Notes under the pieces: model-generated
The model's database searches: none
The model's input: only the letters and a program-made list of their open reading frames with translations
Told to the model about the DNA's origin: nothing
Shown here: positions 29,971 to 47,349 of the stretch, piece by piece
Layout of the letters: the number at the start of each line of letters is the position of its first letter
How positions within the stretch are numbered: the stretch's first letter is position 1
Program-made: the position numbers and the translations under genes
DNA from: Cliona cf. orientalis
Taxonomy: Eukaryota; Porifera; Demospongiae; Clionaida; Clionaidae
Length of the DNA stretch: 64,000 bases
Assembly: GCA_963930775.1 (NCBI GenBank)
Contig: OZ005698.1
Coordinates: forward strand, 2,982,501 to 3,046,500
Reading direction: 5' to 3'

Positions 29971-32387
29971 ATGAATGTTAGGGTAATGGATCCAGAGTTA
30001 TGGTGTGTGATACTTTTGATAACCTCCACAATAGGTGAGTTTAGAACATACTATAGTCACTGACTCATTGACTAGACACTGAGAATTGTAATTACCAAAT
30101 ATTCTACAGTCTCAATGCAAGGTCAGGTAGTGTGCAGAGCCAGTTTTAACTGTGCTGGTGGACTAGCTGATGATCTAGGAGTGGCAGTGGATGCGGCAGG
30201 CTGCTGTCTGGGCAACCCAAATGCTATGGCCTATAATCCCGGGGGCAGTGAAGACTGTTTTGCTTGTGTTGGTGAGTTCTTGAATGTCATTTCCTGTAAA
30301 TGGGCGATAAGAATTTATTTTCTTATATAACAGTTGTTGGATTCCTCAATGCCTCATTCTCTGGATTTGAGCAGGGATCTGGTCACTCTGTGCCAGTGGG
30401 GTACCTAAAAGGTGGTACAGTAGCTGGACAAAACTTGGTGTTTGATGTCAGAAGTACCCCAGGCACTGCAAGTGAGAGTTAGCTATAATTATATTGCAGC
30501 TAGTTGGAGGTTGTTATTATTATTTTTAGTGATTTGCAATTGACGAAACTTCAATTGCAGGAGAGGGCTTTGATTATACAGTGAACACTTTGAGAACGAG
30601 GGCTTTAGCTAATGGCCAAGTTGCAACTGTGATGCTGACCTTCCGTGCCGATTATATTGCTCAAGAACCCAATGAGACATTCATTCTCACACTGGATCCA
30701 GTTGTTGCACCAAATCCAAGAGAAGGGTTATTTTTCCAGAATGCTATAGAAGTGACAATTGTGAATGATGATTGTAATAAACAGAGGCATCCTTTGTATA
30801 ATAATTTAAAATTTAATTTTATTATAATATAGATGTTAAATTCTCATTCACTGAAGATCGTTATCGTGCCCGTGAGCCTGACTTATTGAACCCTGCGACA
30901 TTCCTGCCTGTTTTAGTGTCCAAGTCTGTACAAATTGCTTCTCGAGTTGAACTAGTGGTTGTTTCTTTAACAGTTGATGAAGACAGAGGCACATCTCTTC
31001 CTCTTCCTCCAAATATCCCTGAGAATGATCCGAGGTCTCCACCATTTGCAAGTAAGAAAATAGGATTTTACTATTATTATTATTATTATATAATACTCTC
31101 TAGACATTGCTGACTTTAACAACACTAACATCACTATTGTTTTTGAGCCTGATGAGGATGTAGAGGTCTATGAAAAGAGTGTTCCTATTTTTATTACTGA
31201 TGATGCTATCAATGAAGCAACAGAACAAGTGTTTATTGCAGAGCTGATGCTTGTGAGCAGTTTAGACCCTGCCGCAGTTGATCTTTCCATACGACCATCA
31301 ACTCTGTGCAGGATTATTGATAATGATCGTAAGTTGAAACAATTATAGTGCTATCGTGATTGTACTACACTGACAGCTATCATAACTAGAGCTCTCTAGA
31401 GCCCAGAACCCTCGGCGCGTTGCGTGGTGTTTGTTGCACATACAAGCTGGCAATGATAACTACATTGATCTCCTGCAGTGACCCTGAGTGCCCAGATCAT
31501 GCTTCTCAAGCTCAAGTTGAGGGGTGTCGTACCAGTTTTGGAGGTGGAGTATGTCATCTCTGGTTTGGTGACTAGACTAAGCTGTATTCTGTGTAGGCTC
31601 GCTTTCAAGTTGTGCTCTTCTGGTGCCGCTATTTTTCACTAGCCTCATCATCTGCTGATTCTGATGCTATTGCCGCTATTCTCTTGCTTTCTATAGGCTA
31701 GTGGAATAAACTGGAAGTCATACACATACACAGATTTCTGCCATGGAACAATATTTAGGACACTGCTTGCGGACCGGAGGCATGATTTATATACTTATTT
31801 GAAATCAAATCACAAAATAGCTACAATAACTCTGCACAGAATAGCTATGTTGCATGTGAACTGGGTGGTAGAGAACCAAAGGTGCTATAGCCTTGTACCC
31901 TCCAAGGGCCTGGTGCAAGGCTACAAGCACATTCATATTAGTACCTTACCAGCTGCTTCAACTGAAAAACAGCTGGCCAGAGAGTGCAGCACAATGTATA
32001 CGGTAGCATGACTTGCGTGTAAATAGAGACAAGTGCATTGGGTGTGGCTTGCAGGAAAGTCAAGAAGCTATTTAAACTTTATGCTTCGCTGACTATTGGC
32101 CCAGGCAGGCAGTAGCTTTACAGGAGTTGTAGCTGGAACTACTTAGTTGTATCTTGAAAGAAGTCTACTGTTGTTCATTCTGTCCATCAAAAAGCTGCCA
32201 AGGTGCGTGGAAGGATGGACTTATGGTGGAAGTTAGCGGTCCTGAGTAAAATTAATGTCACCAGAACTGGAGAACGAAGCGTTCTCAGCGAAATCCATAC
32301 AATACATGGCTTTGAAACGCCATAAGGAATCATATAACACCGAGGTTGAGACTCGCAAACGAGGTATGTAGCAGTTACAGAGTTAAA

Positions 32388-32424
<37 letters not shown>

Positions 32425-35400
32425 CACACACACAGAACGACTACAGTAACCGTCGCGCATGCGCCAAGGGTTAACAGCTGGCCAAGTTCAGACACGTGCT
32501 CTTTATAGAGTAGTATTATGCAGTACGCATGCATGTATACGGTAGCATGACATTCGTGTAAATAGAAACGAGTTGCTTGGCAGGCCAGGCCCGGAAAGTC
32601 AAGAAGCTTGGCAGTTACACTAAATACTTCGAGACAGTAACTTTGCAGGAGTTATTATCATTTTCTATCTTGAAAGAAGTCCAGTGTTGTTCATTTTGTC
32701 CATCGAAAATCTGCAACGGTGCGTGGAAGGATGATCTATGGTGAAAGGTAGCGGTCCGGAACAAATGTCGCCAGAACTGGAGAACAAAGCGTTTTCAGCG
32801 AAATCCACACAATGCATGGCTTTGAAACGCCATAAGGAATCATATAACACCGAACTTGAGACTCGCAAACGAAGTCTGAAGCAGTTAGAGAGTTAACAGA
32901 CAGACAGACAGACGGACAGACAGACACACAGAACGACTACTGTAACCCTACGGCGCATGCGCCGAGGGTTAATAATAATATTATGTTTACTGTGTATATA
33001 CCACTATTACAACATACAGCCATCAGAATTGGATTCGAGCTACCTGGCTACACATACACAGAGCCATCGTTTGACGAATTCATAGATCAGTCTTTTATGT
33101 CACCAACTGGTAGACCTGAAAATGGGCCAGTCTTTTTGGCCAAGGAAAACAATACAATTTCAGAACAGATTTTTCAAGTTTCTTTTCAAGTCACAGATTC
33201 AACTCCCACTAATATTCAATCAGCTACAATTCATCGAGATTATTATTTTGGATCCCAACTGGTCAAACAAGTCAAACTTTCCCATTTTTACCCTCTGAAC
33301 AGAGGATTCCTTTTTTATTTCAGCTATTGGCAGACACTCTCCCTGAAAGAAATGAAGCATTTCAGGCTAGAGTATCTCCTGCAGACACTCTAGACCTTGG
33401 TAATGGGATGGTGGAGCAGCTTCCAACTTATCGGAGTCCTCTGACTTTGTCATATACAACACTCATTACCATTGTAGACAATGATCGTAAGTTTTTAAGC
33501 ACATAATAATTATTATATTGATTCTTTAGCTAATTATATTAATATTGCATTTCAGCTATTGTTATTGGATTTACCAACACGAGCTACACTGTTGATGAAG
33601 ATATCGGAACTCTGCAAGCTGAAGTCCAAGTTCTCAATGTTCCTCATGATCACCTTCTACCAGCTTCTGTAGATCTAGTCATTCAATCAGTATCTGGATC
33701 AGCAAGTAAGTGAACAGAGCCAGTGTACAGATATTGATGCTAATATTATTCAAAATTGTTATAGCTGGAGGAAGCGACTATCAAGAAATTAATGCACTAA
33801 ATTTTGATGTATTCCTAACCTTTGATGATGTAAATCGTCATCGTTCATTCCTTGTGGCTATCATAAATGATACTTTATTTGAACTTGATGTTGAAAATTT
33901 CACATTAGAGCTGAGATTTGATCCATTTGCATTTGAACCACCTTCAGATGTAATACTCCGTCCAAATATTTCAGTAGTTAATATCTTAGATATTGGTAAG
34001 AAACAAATCAATAGCTATGTGAAGTATGCATAATGATAGCGATCCATTGTTATTCCATGTAGCTGTTGTGATTGGTTTCCTGAACACTTCCTACACTGTG
34101 AGTGAGAACAATGGAGTAGCAAACATCCAGATTGGAGTGATCCGAGGCTCACTAGAGGAACCAATTAATGTGCAATTCTCTCTTAATGCTATGTCTGCTA
34201 CTAGTACGTAAATTGCATAATACATGTATAAGCATAAGTATGTATAGTGATGACATTACTTGTTCTTCAATAATTACTGTTCAGCTCCACCAGATTATAC
34301 TTCGGTCTCTCGAGCTTTGGTTTTCTCTAATTCTTTAACATTTCAAACTGTACAAGTACCAATTGTGAATGACTCAACCCTGGAACTTAGTGAAGTGTTT
34401 ACAGCATCGCTTGCACTGGTCCAGGAGAGTTTCAATAATCATGTTAAGCTCGTACCTACCTCAGTCTCTGTTACAATCAGTGATGATGATGGTACTTAGT
34501 CTATATAAATTATACTTAAATGCTATAATGATTTCATTGTATGCAGAGCTTGTATTTGGATTCGGCGCTATGGAGTATGTTGTATATGAGGGTAATGGAT
34601 CTCTCATGATTGAAGTGATCTTCATTCAAGGAATTCCTGGCGACTACCAACCTATGGTTCTCATGTCAACACACAACGGGACAGCAACAGGTCAGCAGAT
34701 CTTTTAAACGGCAAAATTATTTTGATAAATTCCTACAGAAGGGAGAGATTTTTCTGCCCTAGTGTCTTCAGAGATTACGTTTACAGCTATCAACCAAGTC
34801 AAACAATTATCCATACCTATCATTTCTACCAACTCTACTGAGAGTAGTGAGGAGTTCACTGTCACACTAGATAAGGTCATGTTAGTCCACTCAAACACCA
34901 GAATCACAGTAAATGTTTCCGATCAAGAAAGTGCTCGCCTCATACTGAATCCTAGAATAGCAAAAATTACTATCTTAGATGATAATGGTACGTAAATCAC
35001 AATGATTGATAAAAATAGCCATTAATTTCATGCAGTACTATAAATCTTAGTGGCAGTGATTGGCTTTCTGAACTTTAATCTTACTGTTCCTAGAGGAAAA
35101 GACACCCTTAATTTCACCATTGGAGTTTTGCATGGCTATATAGACACAATGGTGACTGTTTTGTTCACAACAGAAGCATCAAGTGCAAAAGGTATAATGT
35201 TATTAGAGTATTCAGTGTTTTAATAGCAATGTTATGTCAATTACAGCTGATGAATATATCGAAACCTCTCCTTATTTTCGCTGGAGATGCTGTGCAGCAT
35301 GTACCTGTCCACATCATTGATGATGGAAACTCTGAACCTTCAAAGATCTTTTTTTGGGATTCTGAGCAGTGCTAATGGCACAGTGATCCCATCGAACATT

Positions 35401-35836
35401 CACCTGGAACCTGCAAGAGCCACTGCCACCATCATCAATACTAAGAGTATAATAATGTTATGATACAGTATAATATTTCCTTCCATATTATTATATTATT
35501 ATTATTATAGACAGAGATACAGGGAATAGTCAGCCTCGGAATAGTAGCCTTGTCACAGTGCTTGCAGTGGTGATAGTATGTGTCCTAGTGCCCTTAATGT
35601 CGATAACAGCTATTATGATAATATGTCTCTTATTCAAGAAGGGGAAAAGGAAGAAGCAGGTACCAGAAAATACATATGATTCAGTCTCACTGCCGCCAAG
35701 TGCTCTTCCCTCCCTCTCGGAGGCCACAAACCTTGATTATGATGAAGTTAAGACTGTTACTGACACTCAGTTTGAGCTCACAAAAAATGCAGCCTACAGC
35801 TCCTTTAAGCCACCATCAGCAGCTGAGACTAACTGA
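29971..35836 (+). CDS. Membrane-anchored Calx-beta repeat protein
   Basis: Exons: 29971-30034, 30110-30271, 30334-30471, 30561-30773, 30833-31051, 31104-31328, 33020-33486, 33556-33705, 33765-33995, 34063-34203, 34285-34491, 34547-34690, 34739-34987, 35051-35191, 35247-35446, 35511-35836; introns phase 1. Nominal length is about 1,090 residues. Signal peptide (start at 29971 or in-frame 29986), a Cys-rich N-terminal domain (AAGCCLGNPNAM...CFACV), then about seven Calx-beta domains, recognised by repeated GF-N-(x)T-V and IVNDD/IIDNDR/ILDDNG ends. One TM helix follows (VLAVVIVCVLVPLMSITAIM), then a cytoplasmic tail with YDSV, YDEV and YSSF. Calx-beta domains bind Ca2+ and build sponge aggregation factors, so Ca2+-dependent adhesion is the likely role. 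Exons 33020 (467 nt) and 35247 (200 nt) contain frame breaks, so the locus may be decaying or misassembled. Confidence 0.8.
31999..32975. repeat. Two tandem copies of repeat R4 in intron 6 of the Calx-beta gene
   Basis: Units at about 31999-32476 and 32541-32975 share GTGTAAATAGA, GGAAAGTCAAGAAGCT, GAAATCCA(T/C)ACAAT and CGCCATAAGGAATCATATAA. Both end in (CAGA)n plus CAGAACGACTAC-TGTAACC and a GCGCATGCGCC palindrome followed by AGGGTTAA. Related tails occur at about 27140-27256 and 36340-36400. Confidence 0.75.
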
Positions 35837-36586: not shown

Positions 36587-38942
36587 TTAAGTTGAAAGAG
36601 TCTCATCAGCAGCAAGTTCATTAGTGTTGCCATGGATACTGGTGGTTGCCACGGGGACATAAGCTGGGCACTGGGTGAACTCATAGTCTCCAGTTGATGG
36701 TAATGGCTGCATCTGCACTGCCTCAACTTCTGGTTTTGGCTTATCCAGGGATGAAATTTTCATATTATCCTGATTGTAGTTGTCCAGTATCTCATACTCA
36801 TGATCAGTAGTTTCAATAGTCTCATAAACTTCTCTCTCTTTGTTAGTGGGAGACAGATCACTTAACATCACACTCCCTGCAGCTGGGGCTTCGTATGGCA
36901 AGGGCCTGTGTAAGACAGTAGACTAAGTATTAAACATAATAAGAAATTGGCTTAATTAATGAATTTACTTTTGATTTGGATTGAATCCAGCTCTTCGGCT
37001 TCTGAGTACCAGGGCAACAATAACTATAACGGCTGTTGTTGCTGCAATGATTAGCACGATCACGACAGCTACCACTCCACCTATGATGGTGTCAGAGGCT
37101 GAGCTAGTTTGATCTGGAAGAGCTGCTGCTGTTTGTGGTGGTGGATTGGCATTTACAGGACCCATGGGAGCTGGAAAAAATTTGTAAAATCTGATAGATT
37201 GATGCATGATCCATTACCCAGTTAATAAGTTGGCCATGTTAGAATAAAGATTAGGGGGGAGACCCAGATAACAAAGATAGACTAGCTGTGCACTCTCTCA
37301 CAATTAGCTACCTGACATCCCAGCTACTGTTGAGGTTTTAACCGTGACATTGTACTCAGCTCCTGATTGCAGTCCTGAAATAATGACTCGATTCTGTGAC
37401 CATGGAACAATTATAGTTCCTCCTAATTCACTCTGCCTCTTCCTAGAGTCAATGATGATGGTGTATGTAACAATGTAGCTAGCCAATCCCTTCAGTTCCA
37501 CCAAAGTGAATTTTGTCCAGCTCACTCCAATAGATGTGGGATTAAATCTCACAACTACAACATTCTCTGGTGGAGGTGGCGCTGAAAATGAGAAAAAAAT
37601 CACATGATAATAATATATTATGATCTTTATACATGAGTTGCTCCACTTTACTAGTCTCATTCCCATGCAGGCTCCATTGAAAGTGACGGAACCTGCGGAT
37701 GAGGCTATAGCACTTTACCTCCTTCTTGTGTGAAGCAGTAGGTTTGGTTTTCTTCCCCACATCCAGCCAGATTGAGGGCCTTCACTGAGATACTGTAGGG
37801 TACTTCAGCAGCTGTAAATGTACAACAATAATAGGCAGTCTATTTTAATACAACAGCTGTATATAGCTACCAAGTCCAGTGAGAGTCGCCTCTCTTCTAT
37901 CAACAGACTCATCATATACACCAGACTGGATAACTTCCCTGGTGCCTGGTCTGTGCTCTAGTCTGCTCACGATGACTTGATAGTTGACCACTTCACTGCT
38001 CAGCAGGGTAGGCAGATCCCAGGAGATGGAAAGCTCTGACGGTGAAGAACTCATAGAACAAGCCAAGTTCCTAACTTCACCAGGTACTAAAGTTAATGAT
38101 GAAGTTTCGTACTATAAGATGCATAGTATAGGTACTCACAGTCAATATTAGCTTGCACTTTATCTGTACCAAATGTATAATTGTCAATTTGAGCCTGTGG
38201 GATGTTCACTATAGAATGACAAGTGTACTGGCCTCTGTTGTTAGCAGTAACATCACTGAAAATGAGCTCTCTAGTTTGAGGATTCATTCTTGGATTACTG
38301 GACTCCACAGTAGGCACTTCAGAGCCATCAGGGGCAATCCAGATGATGGTGGGTGGAGAGAAGAGATTCTCCACTTGAGTAGCAGTGCAATTGAGGGTCA
38401 TGACCTCCCCACATCCATCCAATTGACGACGAGATACAATGGAAATAGTAGGGGGTCGGGAGGGAAGAGCTAAAGGTGGAAGCAAACATAAGCAATCAGG
38501 GTTTCATCCAGAAAAAAATTTTTGGGGGAGAAGTGGGCGTGGCAGTTTCACGCACCGTGACCCCTGCCCCAATTAAGAATTGATATCAATTCAGGGGCTG
38601 ATCCAGAGAAGGTGGATAGGGTGGCTAGCCACCCCCCTTCACTAATTATTTTATGCAACGTAGTATAGGAGATGTCCACCATTATTAACCAGCCACCCCC
38701 TTTGCACCAGTATGGTTTACAATGGGTAGCCACCCTATCAGCCACCTTCCACACAAATTTTCTGGATCAGCGCCTGCAATTAATGATTGTATTTTCTGAT
38801 GTCACTGAGGTATTGCATAGTTTTATCTAGTGCTCTTAAATAATTGAGTCATGAAGTAGGAGACTATACTGATCACTTGCAATGCCAATGCGACGCAAAA
38901 ATGTACACGCTCCCCTTCCCACACCATGCACCTCTCTCTCTT

Positions 38943-39009
<67 letters not shown>

Positions 39010-42000
39010 CTTTTCCTCCTTTCTTCTTTCTCTTTTTCTCTTTGGGGGGGGGGGGGGGGGGGGGGGGGGAAGCTTCCCCCCCCCACCCCCCCCGGATGAA
39101 ACCCTGGCAATGAAGTACTAGCATGCAAAAAGTTACACTAATTAACGCACGTAGCTATGTACCACATTAGCTTACGTGCAACTGCCAAGTTGTAACTATC
39201 TAGGCCACTGTATTCAATAATGTGTGGGGAGTTGTCTGAGGAACGAATAGTGTAAGCCAAAGTATACTCTCCTGAACTATCAGTGGCCACAGGTAGCAAT
39301 GATAGCAAAATCTGAGTTGTAGTCACTAATGAGGAAGTACCACCAGACCATGTCCCTGAAACTGTGACGTCAGTGTCCACATTTGAATTCTGCTGAATCC
39401 TTCCCATGATGATCAAGTTCGTTCCATTGTAGGCAGTGGGATGAGGAAGGACTGAAAACACAGGACGCGGAACTGCACAGTCATTTTGATTTTGTTTTAA
39501 TTGCAGCTCAACTTTGAGTGTTTTACACTGACAACTTACTTTGAACTTGGACAGTTTGACTGGCAGTCCGACTCAGAGAATTGAGTCCTTGTATATCTAT
39601 AGTAGCTCTGCACATATAAACACCTGCTTGGGATGTACGTATGCGATTGAAAGCCAGTATCCTAGTGGTAGTGCCTTGGATCCCCAACTGGTCACCCACA
39701 GTTGTATCAATGATATTATTTCTAGGGAATTCCCACACTAAGGTTGGTCTTTCTACAAGGTACTCGTCAAAAGCAGCAGTACAGGTTATGGTATCCTGGC
39801 CACCAGCTTCTACAGATATTCCTTGGATAGGTGAGACAGAAACTGTAGGAGCTTGGAGAGCTACGGGGAAAAGGCATTTTAGCGATATTGAAATTATCAA
39901 CCTAACTTCTTAATACACTTACGACCAACACTGATAGACTCCAAGCCTGAGGTAAAGTCACTAGTAACCACATTTGGCACAGATAGTGGAGATGTTGTGT
40001 AGGCTGAACAGTTGTATGCACCAGTATCAGCTTCAAGAAGATAACTGAATGTCACAGTAGTCTCAAAAGTGTTTCCTCCAACTGATACCGTCCGTGGGGA
40101 AACACTGACTCGATCAGAGTCTGATAATCCATTACCCATGATGCTGCTCTCCACTATGATATCTGTATCCACTCCAGTTGTGTTAGGGGTAATGCTACAA
40201 GTGAGAGAGAAGGAGGTACCAGCATTGAGGGTTGTATTGCGACTGCGACGAAAAGTCAAAGATGAAATGGGAGCAGGCACTGTGTGGCCAAGGAATTGCT
40301 AAATCACTCATATACATATACATATATAAACTGAGTGCTCACATTTCACTTGAATGGGGAAGATCACATGTTCAGGATGGTTCATAACTATTCCAGGTAT
40401 GGTCTGAAGAGATTTACAAGTGTAGACTCCAGCTTGAGAGGTGTAGAGGATGTTGAAAACCAGTCTGCTGATGAGGTGAACATCAGTGGTAGGACCATCA
40501 AAAGAAATGGTGAAGTTTTCTCCACTTCTAATGATATTGCCCCTTGGATCAAGCCAATGTACTGCTAAAGTGGATGTAGATGAAAGATCAGGCTCCCTGC
40601 TGGTGTTGCATATCATTATATAGCCGGAGAATCCAGCTGTGGAGATACCTTCAGAAGTAACAGTAACAAATTGAGTTGGAAAATCTGTATAGAGAAATGT
40701 ATACACATCAAAGAATACTATTATTATTATCATAATAATATTACTAAAAACATTAATAGTTCGCGATATAGATGTGGTAGCAGTAGAAATAAACGTAGTG
40801 CCTTGAGGAATTACAGTAACATCACACTCGTATGTTCCAGCATCAGTGACATTCAAGGGATTGAATCTGAGAGTGATGTCATATGGAGGTGAGCTCACTG
40901 GAGGGTTAACAATGGTTATTCTCCCATTTTCATCTCCATCCATCAGCTCTGTCCCATTCCTATTCCAGATTCCCCGTACTGTGACTGGAGTATCCACCAC
41001 ATCACCTAGAGTGATGCTACAGGTGAAGATGAGATCCAGACCTTGGAAGAAACTGGTGTTCTGTGGCGATCCAGAGATGATGGGCGGTGGAGGGATAACT
41101 GCATATGAGAAAAATAATGTAAGTGTATACGACAACAGTGCAACTGACATTGAATAGAAACATTAGTTGTGCTATTTCCAAAGACATCGACTCCAGCCTC
41201 TGGGATGGAGAGTCTGGCAGTGCAGGTGTATCTCCCAGCATGACTGGTCCGCAGAGAGGGGAAGGAGAGGAGATGAGGTGTCGACGTAACATCACTTGAT
41301 AGACTAGCATCTTCCCTAGTCCAAGTCAGCACAGGGGTGCCTCTGATTCCTTCTTGTATGGATGCTGAGCAGTTCAGTGAGAGAAGCTGTCCAGCTGTCT
41401 CAAAGTGATTGAAAGGATCGATGCTCACAGTAGGAGGGAAGGGAACTGCAATAAAATTTAATGTTTAATACACAAAAATTATTAAATTTGCACACATGCA
41501 TAATAACAATGTCATTATCACTCACGAATAACTACAACAGGCATTACTCCTTCTCCCATTTCACTTGCAGTGATGAAGCTTGGCACGTCAATAGGAGGTC
41601 TTGCTCTAGCTTGGCAGGTGAAGGTAGTGTTATCAGCTATGCTCAGAGGGTCTAAGGTGAGGGTGCTTGTGAATGATGGTCTGAAGCCAGTTACTGAAAA
41701 GATGGTTATTCTAGCATCATCATTGGATAAACGTGTGCTTCCTCTCAGCCAAGTGATGTCCATATCGGATATGGCTATATCAGTATCGGTGGCAGAGTTG
41801 ATGGAGATGGCACAGGTGAGAGTGAGAGGAGCTATACGACCAGCAAAGAGTGGACCAGGGGGAACACTGATGACCACATCAGGAGTAGAGACTGCATGGG
41901 AAAATATTATCACACTACTACTCGGGGAGTAGCTATGTATAATGAACAAAATTATGTACATGATTGAGGCCTTACTTTGGATTTTAAGTTCTTCTGTAGT

Positions 42001-45000
42001 AGAACGCATCAATGCTGTATCAAGAGCTGGAGAGATCAAAGTACCACTGCACACAAAACTGCCTTCATGAGATGTCCGTAGCAGTTCAAAGGTCAGAGTA
42101 GAAGTGACCGTCATGTCTTCTGTGGTATTAGATACAGTGATTCCGTTTCCATTGGTGACAGCCACTCCCCGGGTATAAGTCCAAGTGGCAGTTGGAGAGT
42201 TAAGAAAAGCATTTACTGTCTTGGAAACAGTACAGGTCAGGCTAAAGACCATCCCAGCACGGGCAGTGCCTAAACTAGACACACTGGCAGTGAGGGAATT
42301 AGCTGGAACTGAAATAAAAAATAATATGTGAAGTAATCATATGAAGGAGCAAGGAGAACTGGGAGGACCTGGTGCATAGAAACATGATTATCATGATAGA
42401 CACCACTGTCATCTTACCAACAACATTCACAGTAAAATTTTGCACTGCTGTTACTGTCATTCCATCTTCTCCATCTCTAGTCACCCTGCACATATAGACT
42501 TGGGCATGAATGCTGTCGTTGACTGGAGAGAACACTAGATCCAGCTCCTGGATGCCAGTGAAAGCAACACTCTCCACCACCATCCCATCTCTCAGCCATT
42601 CTATCATTGATGATGGAGCATCACTCTTGCATGTAGCAGTTATTGATTCACCAACACTGAATTGATCTCCAAGTATAAACACACCTACATTATTATTATG
42701 TATGATAGACATACCAATGGTATCACAAAATAGTGCCAATTAACCGTTTAGCTCCAAACTTTCTTGAACTGGAACTGTGACTCTAGCATTACTGACCTCA
42801 CAGGTAAAGATTTCACCCACAAAGAGAGTAAGATTATCATTGAAAAGAACACTCTGATATGTAGCTTCTATAGGATCTATCAATCTCTGGCTTTGCTCAA
42901 AGAGAGAGAGGTCCACTGGGATACCATTCTTCCTCCAAGTGACGGTGGTAGGAGGACCACCAGTGGAGGTACAGGTAAGGGTGGTCGAGTTCCTGTCAAA
43001 AAGGAGAGATATGATGGAGAGAGAACCTGCAAAATAATATAATTTTATCAACAGCCTAAGACTATAACAGTTGTAGTAGCTAATGTACGTATTTATCTCA
43101 CCCTCTTGCTGAGAATATATTCCGACATAGATGTTCTGGTTGATTCCATTAGTGTCAGGTATCTCACAGCGATACATTCCACTTGGAGCCACATTAAAAT
43201 TGAATCGATCACGGTGCAAGCTCACAGCACTGGAAACTCGACTTTTGATGAATGGTGAACTACCAGAATCTGTAAGTGATCTACCATCAGGTAGGTACCA
43301 TTCCCTGGTCACACTGGCTGCATTAGGTGTCTCACTGTCACTACAACACTCCAAGCTAGTAGTCAGGCAGTACAGAGCTGACATAAAAAAATTGCTGCCA
43401 ATATCAGTCACAGTCACAATACTATTGTTCAGATAAAGCTGACCCTTCAGAAGAAACCCAAGGCCTAAGGAAGAAATATAATATTGCTTACATAATTATC
43501 ATTAAATTTTATACCCTGTGGGGTAGTAGTGCTGGCTGTGTAAAAAACTGGTGAGCCACGCACATCAATGGTAGGATTTGAAGCTTGCACCTCAAATGTG
43601 TAGCTAGTTCGAGGTGGCAGGCCAGTAATACTGAGCATCCTATCTGTATCTTCAGTACCAGGAAGCGTCCGAGCAATAGCTAGCATAGTAGGAATCGGAG
43701 CTCAAATTGGGATAATAGACAATTCTATAGCCATCAGTGCGTCCATTGCGCTCTTGACAGTCAACACAATCCCAGCGGATGGTGATGCTAGTGACATTCA
43801 CAGAACTGGCAGTAAGAGACTGCACTAATCCAGGGACTGAAAATAGAGACAATGTAAATTTATTATTAATAAAATTAATAGCAGAAACACATGATATAAA
43901 TAGCTAGTAAAATGCAATAGGTAGCGATTCTGGACGATCGACCTAGGCACATAAAAGCCGTTATAACTCAGCACCAGAGGGGATTGACAACAAAAACAAG
44001 ATAGCTTAGGAAATTCTCTTTCATTTAAGCCTCGAAACAAGCAAATCGGTTGAGTACACGCCTTGCAGATTTAATTTTTAGCTCTATGGAAAAATGTATG
44101 GAAAAACAATAATCGCGGCACATAAATCGGGCACACTTCAACCTTTCAACAAAAAACACATATCCTCACAGAGTGGAAGCTATTGACACCTTCACCATAT
44201 AAATTGCTATTGCCACCAGTTTGCACCATCGAGCCGAAAAATTAGGCGGAATCGCTACAATAGGTACCTGCTTCAGTGGTAGTGGTCATGGTAGGCTGTG
44301 ATGGTACACTCCTTGTCACACTGTTGACGGCTGTTAGTGTGATTCGAAACACACTATCCTCCTCTACTGATGTTGAGGCACTGTTATTCAAAGTGTGTCT
44401 CCTCAGAGTGCCATTGTGCACTGATACAGTGACTGGAGGGTATGGTCTACCACCCTCACGTTCACACTCTTCAATAAAATAACGGTAGTTGATCTCATAT
44501 CTGTCCACAGCATCAGCTCCCTCTGGCTGCTCCCAGGTCAAAGTGATGGGGGTAGGTGTGGCAGTTGCCCTCAGGTTAGTGGGAGGAGGGAGGGGGGCTG
44601 TGGTAAAAACATTATGCATAATAATATTATTTTTAAACTTGATACAGGGATGCAGTGAGGTAGCTACACACCAACAGTGATGTTAATTGATCCGGAAGTT
44701 GTTCCACCAGAAACAATGCTAGCTTGGCAGACGTAGTTACCAGTTGTAGCTACCCTAACAGAGACAGTGCTGATGTATGTTATAATGTTCAGCATCACAG
44801 CAGGTACTGGGCTAACTGGCACATAATAATAATATGGTCCAGTCCATTCTGTGTTCACTGTCACTGGAACATCCACTGCTGGACTCAATTTTACAGTGCA
44901 AGTTAGAGTAACAGTAGAACCTGCAATCACACGCAGCGGAGCAAAGACAATCACACCAGTAGGAGCTGGAACTGAAGGAAGGAGAAAATATTACAACAAA

Positions 45001-47349
45001 GACCCCATAAATAATTAAAGAAATCTTACAATTTACTTCCACTACATCACTATTCTCCACCACCAGACTCCCCACAGTGGCTCGGCATGTGTAGTTACCA
45101 GCATGAGATGCCAGTAAGGGAGAGAACGGAAGTTGACTGGTATTAGTGAGCTGAGTTCCATTGCTATTAAACCACTGATAAGTTGCTGGATCAGTTGTTT
45201 CAGTGACAGAGCAGTCCAGAAAGTAGCTCTGACCAGCAGTCAGGGAACCATTGGAGGTGATCACAACACCGATTGAAACTATATACAGGTATTAAAGTTT
45301 TACTAGATGATATTGTTATTTAGACTGTTTTAATTAATTTTACTGTTTGCACAGAGAGGTTGAATATCTCCAGCAGCATTGAGTATTTCACAGCAGAACA
45401 GTCCAGTTGGCATCATGACACTAGCATTTCGATTTAGGTTGACTGTTCCATCATCGTACCCTCTGTTTTTGTAGAAACTCAGAGCAGTTGATGGTCCTGG
45501 AATCATTGTCCTATTAGGAGTGTACATGTACCACTCCCCTGCTCGGATGGAAAGTGTCCTACAGCATGGCATTCTGTCAGTGATACACTGGAGCCCGTCA
45601 TTTAAATCAGTATCAGGACTAGTCTCCTCAATCTCAGTGATCTGGATGGCACTATTGTTAGCATAGATCACTCCCTTTAGAGAGAGGTAGACACCTGCAC
45701 ACATGTATACAATGTTAATTATAACTTACAGCACCTCCCATATTCATTTAGATATGTCTCATAGTAATAATATGATATGTGAGCATGCATGCTAATCACT
45801 ACATGTGTACTTGCATGCAGCTTGAGTAGAAAGTGCATAATTTGCATGAGAGCACTATAATATTACCAGTATAATATTGCCAAGACTGCTATATATAGAG
45901 CTAGTAATATTTGCGTGGATAATGACAACAATGGTGATGACAAAACTTGATTATTTTACCCCTGACACATAATGGATGTAGGACAAAATAATATTATTAA
46001 TATTAAGTATTCTATCGACCTATATTGAAGTATGCATGATAAAAACATAATATTATTGCATTATTAATTTACAGCCTACCAGTTCCAATAGTGATGCTAT
46101 CCATTCCACCACTGATAATTATCAAGTTTGATTCAACATTGGCCATGCATGTGTACTCTCCTGATTGATTCCTCCCAAATGACCTGATCATGGCTGTACT
46201 AGTGTATCTGGTTGCATTTTCCATCACTGACGTCGACCTAGTAACAGGAATGATTGCTACCCCAGCAGGTCCTGAAAACTGAGCAGTCATGGCCACTCGA
46301 ACATCCACCAATGGACTCAAATCCATGGTACAGGTCAGAGTAACAGCTGATCCAACTGGGCGAATGGGGCTCACAGGAGTACTCATAATCACTACTACTG
46401 GATTTGGCACTGGAGGAAAAGGATATTAATACATAATTCATCAGCATTTTAACAGAGGCAATAATTATCTCTCCATTTAATCTGCAAAGAATGATGCAAC
46501 TAAACACTCACTTTGAATGGTTACCATCACTTTTGCAGTCTCCTCTATACTATTCAGTGTTGCTCTGCATGTGTATATCCCAGCAGCAGAAGCAGTCAGT
46601 GGGTTAAAAGTCAGTGTGCTCATACTACCATTAGTAGACATAATTTCATTGTCCATTGGATCCAGCCAAGTGATATTTGGCTGATCAGTTAATGCAGTAG
46701 TGGTCCTAGTAGAACACACTAGACTGTAGCCATCACCAATAGTGTTATTACCAGTAGGAGTAATGGTGACAAGTAAGTCAACTGTATAACATAGCTAATC
46801 GGTAGGCTGGAATGGAAAATTTTTGTACTCACCAATGTTTATGTACAGATCAGCCGGTGACCCATTGACTTGAGGAATATTACAACGAAACTGTCCAATA
46901 ATCGTACCAGTAGATCTGCGGTTTAGGAGAATATGCCGAGATCCCCTGGTTCTGTAGTAGCCATTTGTAGTAGTACCATGAAGAAGCATTCTATCACCAT
47001 TGGGCATGTAAAATTGTCCAGCACGTATTTCAATACAACAAGTATTGCTGTCAGTGGTACACTGTAGTGCATCTGCTCCTTCTCTAATGTCAATCCTCAG
47101 CACTGTGGAGCCATTAGGGTAGGCTGCTCCATTGAGGTAGAAGCCAAGAGTTCCAGCTGAGGTAGATAAAACAGGTACAATATGATAGTTATTTACTTGT
47201 CATGGATTAGAGAGCACTGATATTGTAAGTATTAGCTATAAGAGAGCTTGTATATGATTCAGTTGCAAAGTTACCTCACCTTGTGCATTAGTCATATTAA
47301 CAGTGATACACAGCAATACTGCTGTCATGAATACAATAAAGTCCTCCAT
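36587..47349 (-). CDS. Large V-like/Ig/FN3 receptor with cytoplasmic ITAM
   Basis: 26 exons (5' to 3'): 47349-47280, 47156-46833, 46781-46512, 46409-46080, 45694-45344, 45278-45030, 44971-44672, 44597-44268, 43836-43515, 43464-43102, 43026-42745, 42684-42418, 42308-41976, 41891-41526, 41445-41149, 41098-40745, 40684-40343, 40279-39923, 39860-39540, 39451-39176, 38469-38140, 38086-37871, 37811-37719, 37581-37312, 37170-36969, 36905-36587. Nominal length is about 2,510 residues. Order: signal peptide; V-like, Ig, Ig; V-like, Ig, Ig, FN3, FN3; V-like, about 11 Ig, FN3, FN3; TM (VVAVVIVLIIAATTAVIVIV); tail. The tail carries YETIETTDHEYEIL, a YxxI-x6-YxxL ITAM. Introns are phase 1 except the last (phase 2). 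Exon 43515 is 322 nt, one base over frame. Whether it is one gene or two fused models is open, but only one signal peptide and one TM are seen. Confidence 0.8.
38497..39106. mobile_element. Repeat R3, copy 2, with CT and poly-G microsatellites
   Basis: CAGGGTTTCATCC ... GGATGAAACCCTG ends, flanked by GCAAT at 38492-38496 and 39107-39111. Lies in an intron of the Ig/FN3 receptor. Contains a (CT)n tract at about 38935-39010, poly-G at about 39043-39068, and a nested element at 38592-38776. Confidence 0.85.
38592..38776. mobile_element. 185-bp MITE nested in R3
   Basis: CAGGGGCTGATCC ... GGATCAGCGCCTG ends, flanked by CAATT at 38587-38591 and 38777-38781. The R3 copy at 25357 continues without it. 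Like R3 itself it has CAGGG ends and a 5-bp target duplication, suggesting a hAT-like source. Confidence 0.8.

Follow-up and report, generated by a model that had tools for sequence, protein, structure and literature searches.

An ITAM-like pair of tyrosines in the tail of a large Ig/FN3 receptor gene and its paralogues in the demosponge Cliona cf. orientalis

The ITAMs of vertebrates, such as those of CD3, FcR-gamma, and Ig-alpha/beta, act with the kinases Syk and ZAP-70, and the strict form of their consensus has an acidic residue at position -3 of the first tyrosine ([DE]xxY). CLEC-2 and Dectin-1 are representatives of the hemITAM receptors. In Drosophila, Draper, Src42A, and Shark constitute a working ITAM-Shark pathway, as described in the available portions of PMC4503800 and PMC5138034. 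Multi-gene families of Ig-type receptors with ITAM, ITIM, or hemITAM motifs, namely Alr of Hydractinia and fuhc of Botryllus, are presented as allorecognition candidates (PMC12065747, in part), and the oyster receptor CgIgIT2 is described as a protein with five Ig domains, one transmembrane (TM) segment, and an ITAM (PMC11999971, in part). The sponge membrane proteins with Ig domains include the Ig adhesion molecules and the Ig-RTK of Geodia cydonium (PMC2248247, PMC11999971), and sponge Ig proteins are treated as adhesion molecules in the latter source; the available portions of both mention no tyrosine switch in the Geodia proteins, which we liken to the receptor described here by description and not by sequence. 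As regards the kinases, a single Syk-like gene plus HTK16/SHARK is ascribed to invertebrates (PMC10253181), sponges are counted among the animals with Syk-family kinases (PMC9486129, PMC9601881), and a table in PMC8662651 puts the emergence of the Syk family in vertebrates. In the full-text literature searched, which comprised few subscription papers and was covered as titles, abstract openings, and the available portions of PMC9505182, PMC11999971, PMC12065747, and PMC2248247, no mention of an ITAM-bearing sponge receptor was found, which is weak evidence for its absence.

The window, i.e., the whole stretch of DNA that was analysed, has 64,000 nucleotides and corresponds to C10:2982501-3046500 of a 216.8-Mb assembly in 149 contigs (G000); other C-numbers below denote contigs of the same genome. 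Silicateins are known from siliceous sponges, and a sponge silicatein alpha query (identical to PDB 6zq3) was found to be 73-82% identical to five exons at C12:3671652-3672554 and 84% identical to an exon of a gene next to them, as compared with 46-55% in the 13 best long cathepsin-type frames; we regard these genes as the mark of a demosponge.

The window contains a receptor gene whose features are collected in Table 1. The size of this gene (~10.8 kb), its 12 Ig exon frames, and its four FN3 domains, assigned with the use of Pfam, agree with the sequence-only reading of the locus as a large Ig/FN3 receptor. The FN3 domains are distributed over five frames, and two of the domains score above and two under the Pfam cut-off. 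We take the gene product to be a type I receptor with many Ig domains, four FN3 domains, and one TM helix. The TM exon and the tail exon form a single open frame across their junction (...VIVIVALVLRSRRAGFNPNQ-K-PLPYEAPAAGSVMLSDLSPTNKEREVYETIETTDHEYEILDNYNQ... to TAA), and the core of the tail is exact, which bears out the initial description of one TM helix followed by a YxxI-x6-YxxL tail.

Table 1. Features of the receptor gene and of its tail (positions in the window)
Feature	Position	Strand	Description and basis
Receptor gene	36587..47349	-	~10.8 kb, from signal peptide exon to stop codon; exon chain read by eye
Putative signal-peptide exon	47281..47349	-	ATG-led, hydrophobic, MEDFIVFMTAVLLCITVNMTNAQ; GT donor after it; sequence read
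Ig-like region	38093..46794	-	12 exon frames with Pfam Ig matches, 10 of 12 above the curated cut-off
FN3 exons	43468-43903 and 44245-44682	-	interspersed among Ig exons; Pfam
Exon-like frames	39138-39572, 45333-45725, 46798-47199	-	without any Pfam family
Membrane-proximal FN3	37845-38111	-	slightly under the Pfam cut-off (1.8e-4); extends into exon near 37705-37839
Membrane-proximal FN3	37304-37714	-	above the Pfam cut-off (fn3 2.4e-10)
TM exon	36969..37170	-	202 bases; helix 37004-37090, RSRR after helix; sequence, paralogue matches
Phase-2 intron	36906..36968	-	63 bases, GT-AG (GTAAAT...ACAG); not present in paralogue L047
Terminal tail exon	36587..36905	-	319 bases; 105 codons past junction Lys, TAA stop
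Tail segment	36785-36838	-	EREVYETIETTDHEYEIL; sequence
ITAM-like core YETI-x6-YEIL (Y1, Y2)	36785..36826	-	YETIETTDHEYEIL; sequence, selection
YEFT	36674..36685	-	Tyr conserved in 16 of 19 tails; 2 of the others have a gap and 1 has Phe
YVPV	36650..36661	-	Tyr conserved in 17 of 19 tails; the other 2 have a gap

A search of the same genome with the tail gave 27 rows at E<=10, corresponding to 25 separate places, i.e., the window gene and 24 further places, of which 22 (23 of the 25 with the window gene) have E<=0.01. One tail per locus was read from 23 loci, own included (L001, L007, L008, and L039-L058): L052 comprises two places, of which one tail was used, L053 has an E of 0.19, and C13:755604 (E 2.1) lies outside the set. 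Nineteen of these tails are comparable, the remaining four (L050 to L053) having in-frame stops or being too distant. For the dN/dS and column tests, 15 intact tails were used, with L044 (stop), L048 (broken frame), L049 (deleted), and L047 (distant) set aside as well, and 17 tails were included in the alignment and the tree; all tails are from one genome. The DNA identity of the paralogous tails to that of the window gene reaches 90%. When the tail of one sister gene was compared with contigs of bacterial and archaeal genomes, no relatives were detected there, as expected.

The TM exon was matched in 18 of the 22 paralogous loci at E<=1e-3. Of the 21 paralogues in which the TM segment was matched, 17 have a GT donor at the same position (in L057 it is one codon later), and AG directly precedes the tail in those same 17, the size of the intron between them being about 50 to 75 bases in 16 and about 245 bases in L045. 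The four other loci with a TM match comprise L047 and three that are decayed or distant, namely L050, L051, and L053; the TM search gave no match in L052. In L047 (C13:5848500-5856500), the intron is missing and the TM and tail segments are continuous within one 887-aa frame, hence they are joined there, and the outer part of this frame is a PTTTEAP mucin-like repeat in place of Ig/FN3, so that the TM-tail module sits on another ectodomain. The shared position of GT and AG in 17 of 21 paralogues, together with the intronless copy, supports the splice join and led us to reject a splice artefact as its cause.

Certain loci at the margins of the family deserve a separate mention. L050 and L051 (C3) are two similar tails with in-frame stop codons, probably decayed copies, and L053 (C15:4288500-4296500) is a distant sister gene with a longer tail that ends in DEERYVVN...AAYATV and contains other tyrosine sites. 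A search with the pattern of the Y2 site gave 27 matches as compared with 5 in the control, and three of the places found (C1:9560821, C1:9572995, and C15:6080487, with EYAILDKY or GYEILDRY) may represent distant members.

In the window gene, the core of the tail matches the pattern Y..[IL]x6Y..[IL] exactly, i.e., it comprises two YxxI/L units with six residues between them. Two YxxI/L units, a spacing within the range of 6-8, and a location behind a TM helix are thus present, while the acid at -3 is absent. The fit to the ITAM consensus that had been proposed for this tail, with acidic residues before the first tyrosine, holds for the units and their x6 spacing and, as to the acids, for the Glu residues at -2 and -4, but not for the -3 position of the strict consensus, which is occupied by Arg. 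The further tyrosine sites that had been pointed out, YEFT and YVPV, are present as well (Table 1). The motif alone is weak evidence, since the loose pattern Y..[IL]x6-8Y..[IL] was found in 1795 of 200000 shuffles of this tail (0.9%) and occurs 22 times in the six frames of the window (120411 residues). With D or E within three places before Y1, the pattern was found in 858 of the 200000 shuffles and three times in the window, and in the strict [DE]xxY form in 337 shuffles and nowhere in the six frames of the window, the receptor gene included. It is the conservation across paralogues, not the motif alone, that is the strong evidence.

Of the comparable tails, 19 in number, 17 have Y1, 18 have Y2, and 17 have both together; of the two tails in which Y1 is missing, one is also devoid of Y2. 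The proposed check for relatives devoid of a tyrosine, performed here on paralogues, hence gave a mixed answer, with both tyrosines kept in 17 tails and not in two. In the 15 intact tails, the dN/dS value of the eight YxxI/YxxL codons is 0.047 (dS 0.63), that of tail residues 2-25 plus 47-73 is 0.35 (dS 0.38), and that of the whole tail is 0.33; for residues 74-92 it is 0.62, with a low dS of 0.15 that hints at exchange between the copies. When nine tails from separate places were used, the motif value was again 0.047 and that of residues 2-25 plus 47-73 was 0.37. Random sets of eight tail columns were as low as the motif in 21 of 20000 cases by pN/pS and in 70 of 20000 by pN. Among the 72 column sets of the motif's shape, the motif was third by pN/pS and second by pN, and those ahead of it were the motif itself, shifted by one or two columns. 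The tyrosine units are under strong purifying selection, which supports the two-tyrosine motif on a large Ig/FN3 receptor and rejects a one-off chance motif. The acidic residues near the tyrosines (E24, E26, E29, D35, E37, and E39) are kept in 16 to 19 of the 19 tails. Y2 is the most constant of the three tyrosines of the family and survives in distant relatives (DHDYERL, DHDYEPL): DHDYE.L is retained in L050, L051, and L052, where Y1 is missing or changed.

The pattern of divergence along the protein was compared in the 13 of 22 loci in which all parts are readable. The membrane-proximal FN3 and Ig domains have a median identity of 74-87% to those of the window gene, as compared with 71% for the tail and 65% for the TM segment, and the model of a constant tail under a variable ectodomain was rejected, because these domains are more alike than the tail and the TM segment, as they also are when every locus with a match is included. 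In the case of the next Ig domains outward, identities are about 70-89% in close matches and about 26-48% in distant ones. The term "diversified," used for this receptor in the sequence-only reading, is therefore justified only in part.

The spacing of Y1 and Y2 varies in the family: six residues in six tails, seven in one (YETV), and five in ten. The ten x5 tails (of 19) are one residue short of an ITAM, and nine of them have Ile or Leu at both +3 positions; this spacing, considered in isolation, would be an argument against an ITAM in the majority of the family members. Most sister genes, however, contain a third tyrosine, in YDDV, YEDV, YEDI, YDNI, and similar units. An ITAM-spaced pair is formed by Y1 and Y2 in 7 of 19 tails, by Y2 and Y3 in 8 (the units being six or seven residues apart), by both in none, and by neither in 4, so that 15 of 19 tails, that of the window gene included, have such a pair of some kind. 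The four tails with neither are the near-copies L007 and L058, the distant L047 (YDVP), and L049, whose core is deleted. In the window gene and in L045, Y3 is missing and the Y1-Y2 spacing is legal, and in L040, Y1 is lost (Asp) and the Y2-Y3 spacing is legal. The legal Y1-Y2 pair of L045 has YETV, and Val takes the place of Ile or Leu at the end of five of the eight Y2-Y3 pairs. If the two spacings were independent, the probability of zero overlap would be 0.0065 for all rows and 0.028 with near-copies joined into 14 groups, although both values overstate independence, as the spacing pattern partly follows descent. The tree built from 17 tails has little resolution (of its 14 inner branches, 11 are open and 2 are starred), and neither the order of the spacing history nor the number of events is derivable from it. 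An ITIM reading was rejected, since a site of the [S/I/V/L]xYxx[I/L/V] type is present in 0 of 23 tails, with all pieces of L050 and L051 included. The tail looks as if built to function like an ITAM, yet it departs from the strict consensus, and within the family the pair slides between two positions.

The check for Syk- or Shark-type kinases in the same genome, which had been proposed along with the motif, revealed both a Shark-type SH2-ankyrin-SH2 gene and Syk-type kinase exons with one SH2 half-exon. Genome-wide, we recorded 111 matches to SH2 exons and at least 147 to tyrosine kinase domains (119 of 2511 candidates scored); SH2-kinases of Src type are numerous and greatly expanded. The Shark/HTK16-type gene on C18 encodes an SH2 with FLVR followed by ankyrin repeats (L031) and a second SH2 with FLVR in two exons, followed by kinase exons (L059), i.e., the SH2-ankyrin-SH2-kinase architecture of Shark/HTK16. 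Pfam assigned SH2, Ank, SH2 (first part), and PK_Tyr_Ser-Thr to these exons, and the second part of the second SH2 was recognized only with a profile constructed for this analysis (7.5 bits) and by eye. Its kinase domain, with exons joined by eye, scored 283 bits with ZAP-70, 265 with ABL1, and 251 with SYK, an EGFR entry with two stretches ranking above. The Syk-type exons (C15:3135000-3137600, joined by eye) encode a kinase domain closest to SYK/ZAP-70 (234 bits vs. 173 bits for the next kinase family), with one exon 74% identical to SYK over 46 residues; an EGFR entry tops this list as well, but with 152.5 bits in each of two copies. In the part of this gene that was read, there is one SH2 half-exon, located a few kb upstream of the kinase exons and on their strand. 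While the SYK kinase query singled out the Syk-type gene, the human SYK tandem-SH2 query singled out no Syk gene in this genome. A SHP-2-like gene (L017) encodes two SH2 matches and a tyrosine phosphatase domain, and SHP-2-type SH2 exons are present also in L028 and L029.

Extra SH2 exons of SHP-2 type at C4:7450790 and C4:7511542 suggest more copies of that phosphatase. Among the kinase matches, a 2925-aa frame at C17:2316562-2325288 (minus strand) contains ten tandem tyrosine kinase matches and an SH2 match and possibly encodes a poly-kinase protein, a 1326-aa frame at C2:7894805-7897624 contains three tyrosine kinase matches, and four neighbouring ones are located at C6:5771139-5774296. Thirteen SH2 matches are clustered at C7:1892335-2144565 (plus strand), and in 12 cases a kinase match comes next, the two domains mostly sharing an open exon of about 400 codons; several of these kinases are without the usual DFG, as judged by eye.

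We propose, with a probability of roughly one half, that the tail is an ITAM-like module with an activating function, whose tyrosine pair is phosphorylated by Src-family kinases and read by the tandem SH2 domains of a Shark- or Syk-type kinase. The basis for this proposal consists of the gene and its tail, the conservation of the tyrosines and the purifying selection on them, the ITAM-spaced pair in 15 of 19 tails, the genes of both kinase types, and the many Src-type kinases. Ligand binding would cluster the receptor, and a Src-type kinase would then phosphorylate a pair of tyrosines, Y1 with Y2 (YETI and YEIL) in this gene and, in sister genes, alternatively Y2 with Y3 (for example, in YDDV or YDNI). 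With both of its tyrosines phosphorylated, the pair would be bound by the tandem SH2 domains of the animal's own kinase of Shark or Syk type, and the bound kinase would start an activating cascade, converting ligand binding to an activating signal as in the Draper-Src42A-Shark pathway. Phosphorylation, kinase binding, the activating outcome, and any immune or self-recognition role are what we infer for this tail.

It is rather unlikely, in our estimation, that each tyrosine serves on its own as a docking site (pY-E-x-I/L) for Src-family SH2 domains or for adaptors and that their pairing is incidental. YETI and YEIL do resemble the Src SH2 ligand type pYEEI, the Src-type SH2-kinases are the expanded group in this genome, and Y2, more constant than Y1, outlasts it in the three distant relatives mentioned above; such docking sites, however, would not account for both tyrosines together in 17 of 19 tails or for an ITAM-spaced pair in 15. 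Recruitment of a SHP-2-type tandem-SH2 phosphatase, with an inhibitory or mixed outcome, could make use of the SHP-2-like gene and of the exons of the same type in two further loci, yet we regard it as improbable, as none of the sites in the 23 tails has S/I/V/L at -2 and SHP-2 sites are usually farther apart than this pair.

Similarly small is the probability that YETI and YEIL function unphosphorylated, as YxxPhi endocytosis or sorting signals. Both sites fit YxxPhi, and phosphorylation of the tail is predicted only, but such signals would not need a second tyrosine at a fixed spacing, and the neighbouring acidic residues are kept in nearly all tails. That the motif arose by chance and was merely passed on when the genes of this family were copied in recent times seems very improbable: the loose pattern is common in the window and the tails of paralogues are up to 90% identical in DNA, but at a synonymous divergence near 0.6 the motif dN/dS amounts to about one-seventh of that of residues 2-25 and 47-73.

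The ITAM-like, activating module that we prefer resembles vertebrate ITAMs in that a receptor tail contains two YxxI/L units separated by six residues and that the genome also encodes a kinase of Syk/ZAP-70 type, and differs from them in its location on the Ig receptor itself, in having no acid at -3, and in the alternation of the spacing between two pairs in sister genes. The Y2 site DHEYEIL, with acidic residues before YxxL and the most constant of the motif, is reminiscent of the hemITAM of CLEC-2, but an ITAM-spaced partner tyrosine is present in 15 of 19 sponge tails. Draper, which is not known to contain Ig domains, shares with the sponge system an ITAM receptor and a SH2-ankyrin-SH2 Shark-type kinase in the animal. 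It is described, in the available portions of PMC4503800 and PMC5138034, as a receptor of CED-1/Nimrod type, unlike the sponge receptor. The oyster CgIgIT2 is alike in having several Ig domains, one TM, and an ITAM (PMC11999971, in part), while the sponge gene exceeds it in size, encodes FN3 domains, and is accompanied by about 20 sister genes. Hydractinia Alr and Botryllus fuhc, likened here by description and not by sequence, differ in their ITIMs, found in none of the 23 sponge tails. As to the view that an ITAM on such an Ig receptor in a non-bilaterian would be notable if it works, the ITAM-type motifs on Ig receptors of Hydractinia constitute a precedent (PMC12065747, in part).

A broader possibility, which we advance only tentatively, is that a multigene family of demosponge Ig/FN3 receptors signals via an ITAM-like cassette and Syk/Shark, in an arrangement that predates the sponge split, and that this cassette slides, its central tyrosine pairing with the upstream or the downstream neighbour at ITAM spacing. 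Such use of the cassette in a demosponge would make ITAM signalling by Ig receptors older than the split between sponges and other animals. Since both candidate kinases are located in the same genome, the question reduces to simple peptide binding. Should Syk or Shark prove to bind the tail, the axis of receptor, ITAM, and Syk that underlies B and T cell activation could be traced to sponge Ig receptors, and a large gene family would become available for asking what is recognised, microbes or other sponges.

The gene adjacent to the receptor gene (window positions 30076-35836, plus strand) encodes Calx-beta domains, which were assigned with the use of Pfam and are a constituent of aggregation-factor proteins of sponges, as well as one TM helix recognised by eye and a short tail. 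The tail of this gene product, NTYDSV...LDYDEV...NAAYSSF, contains two YxxV sites.
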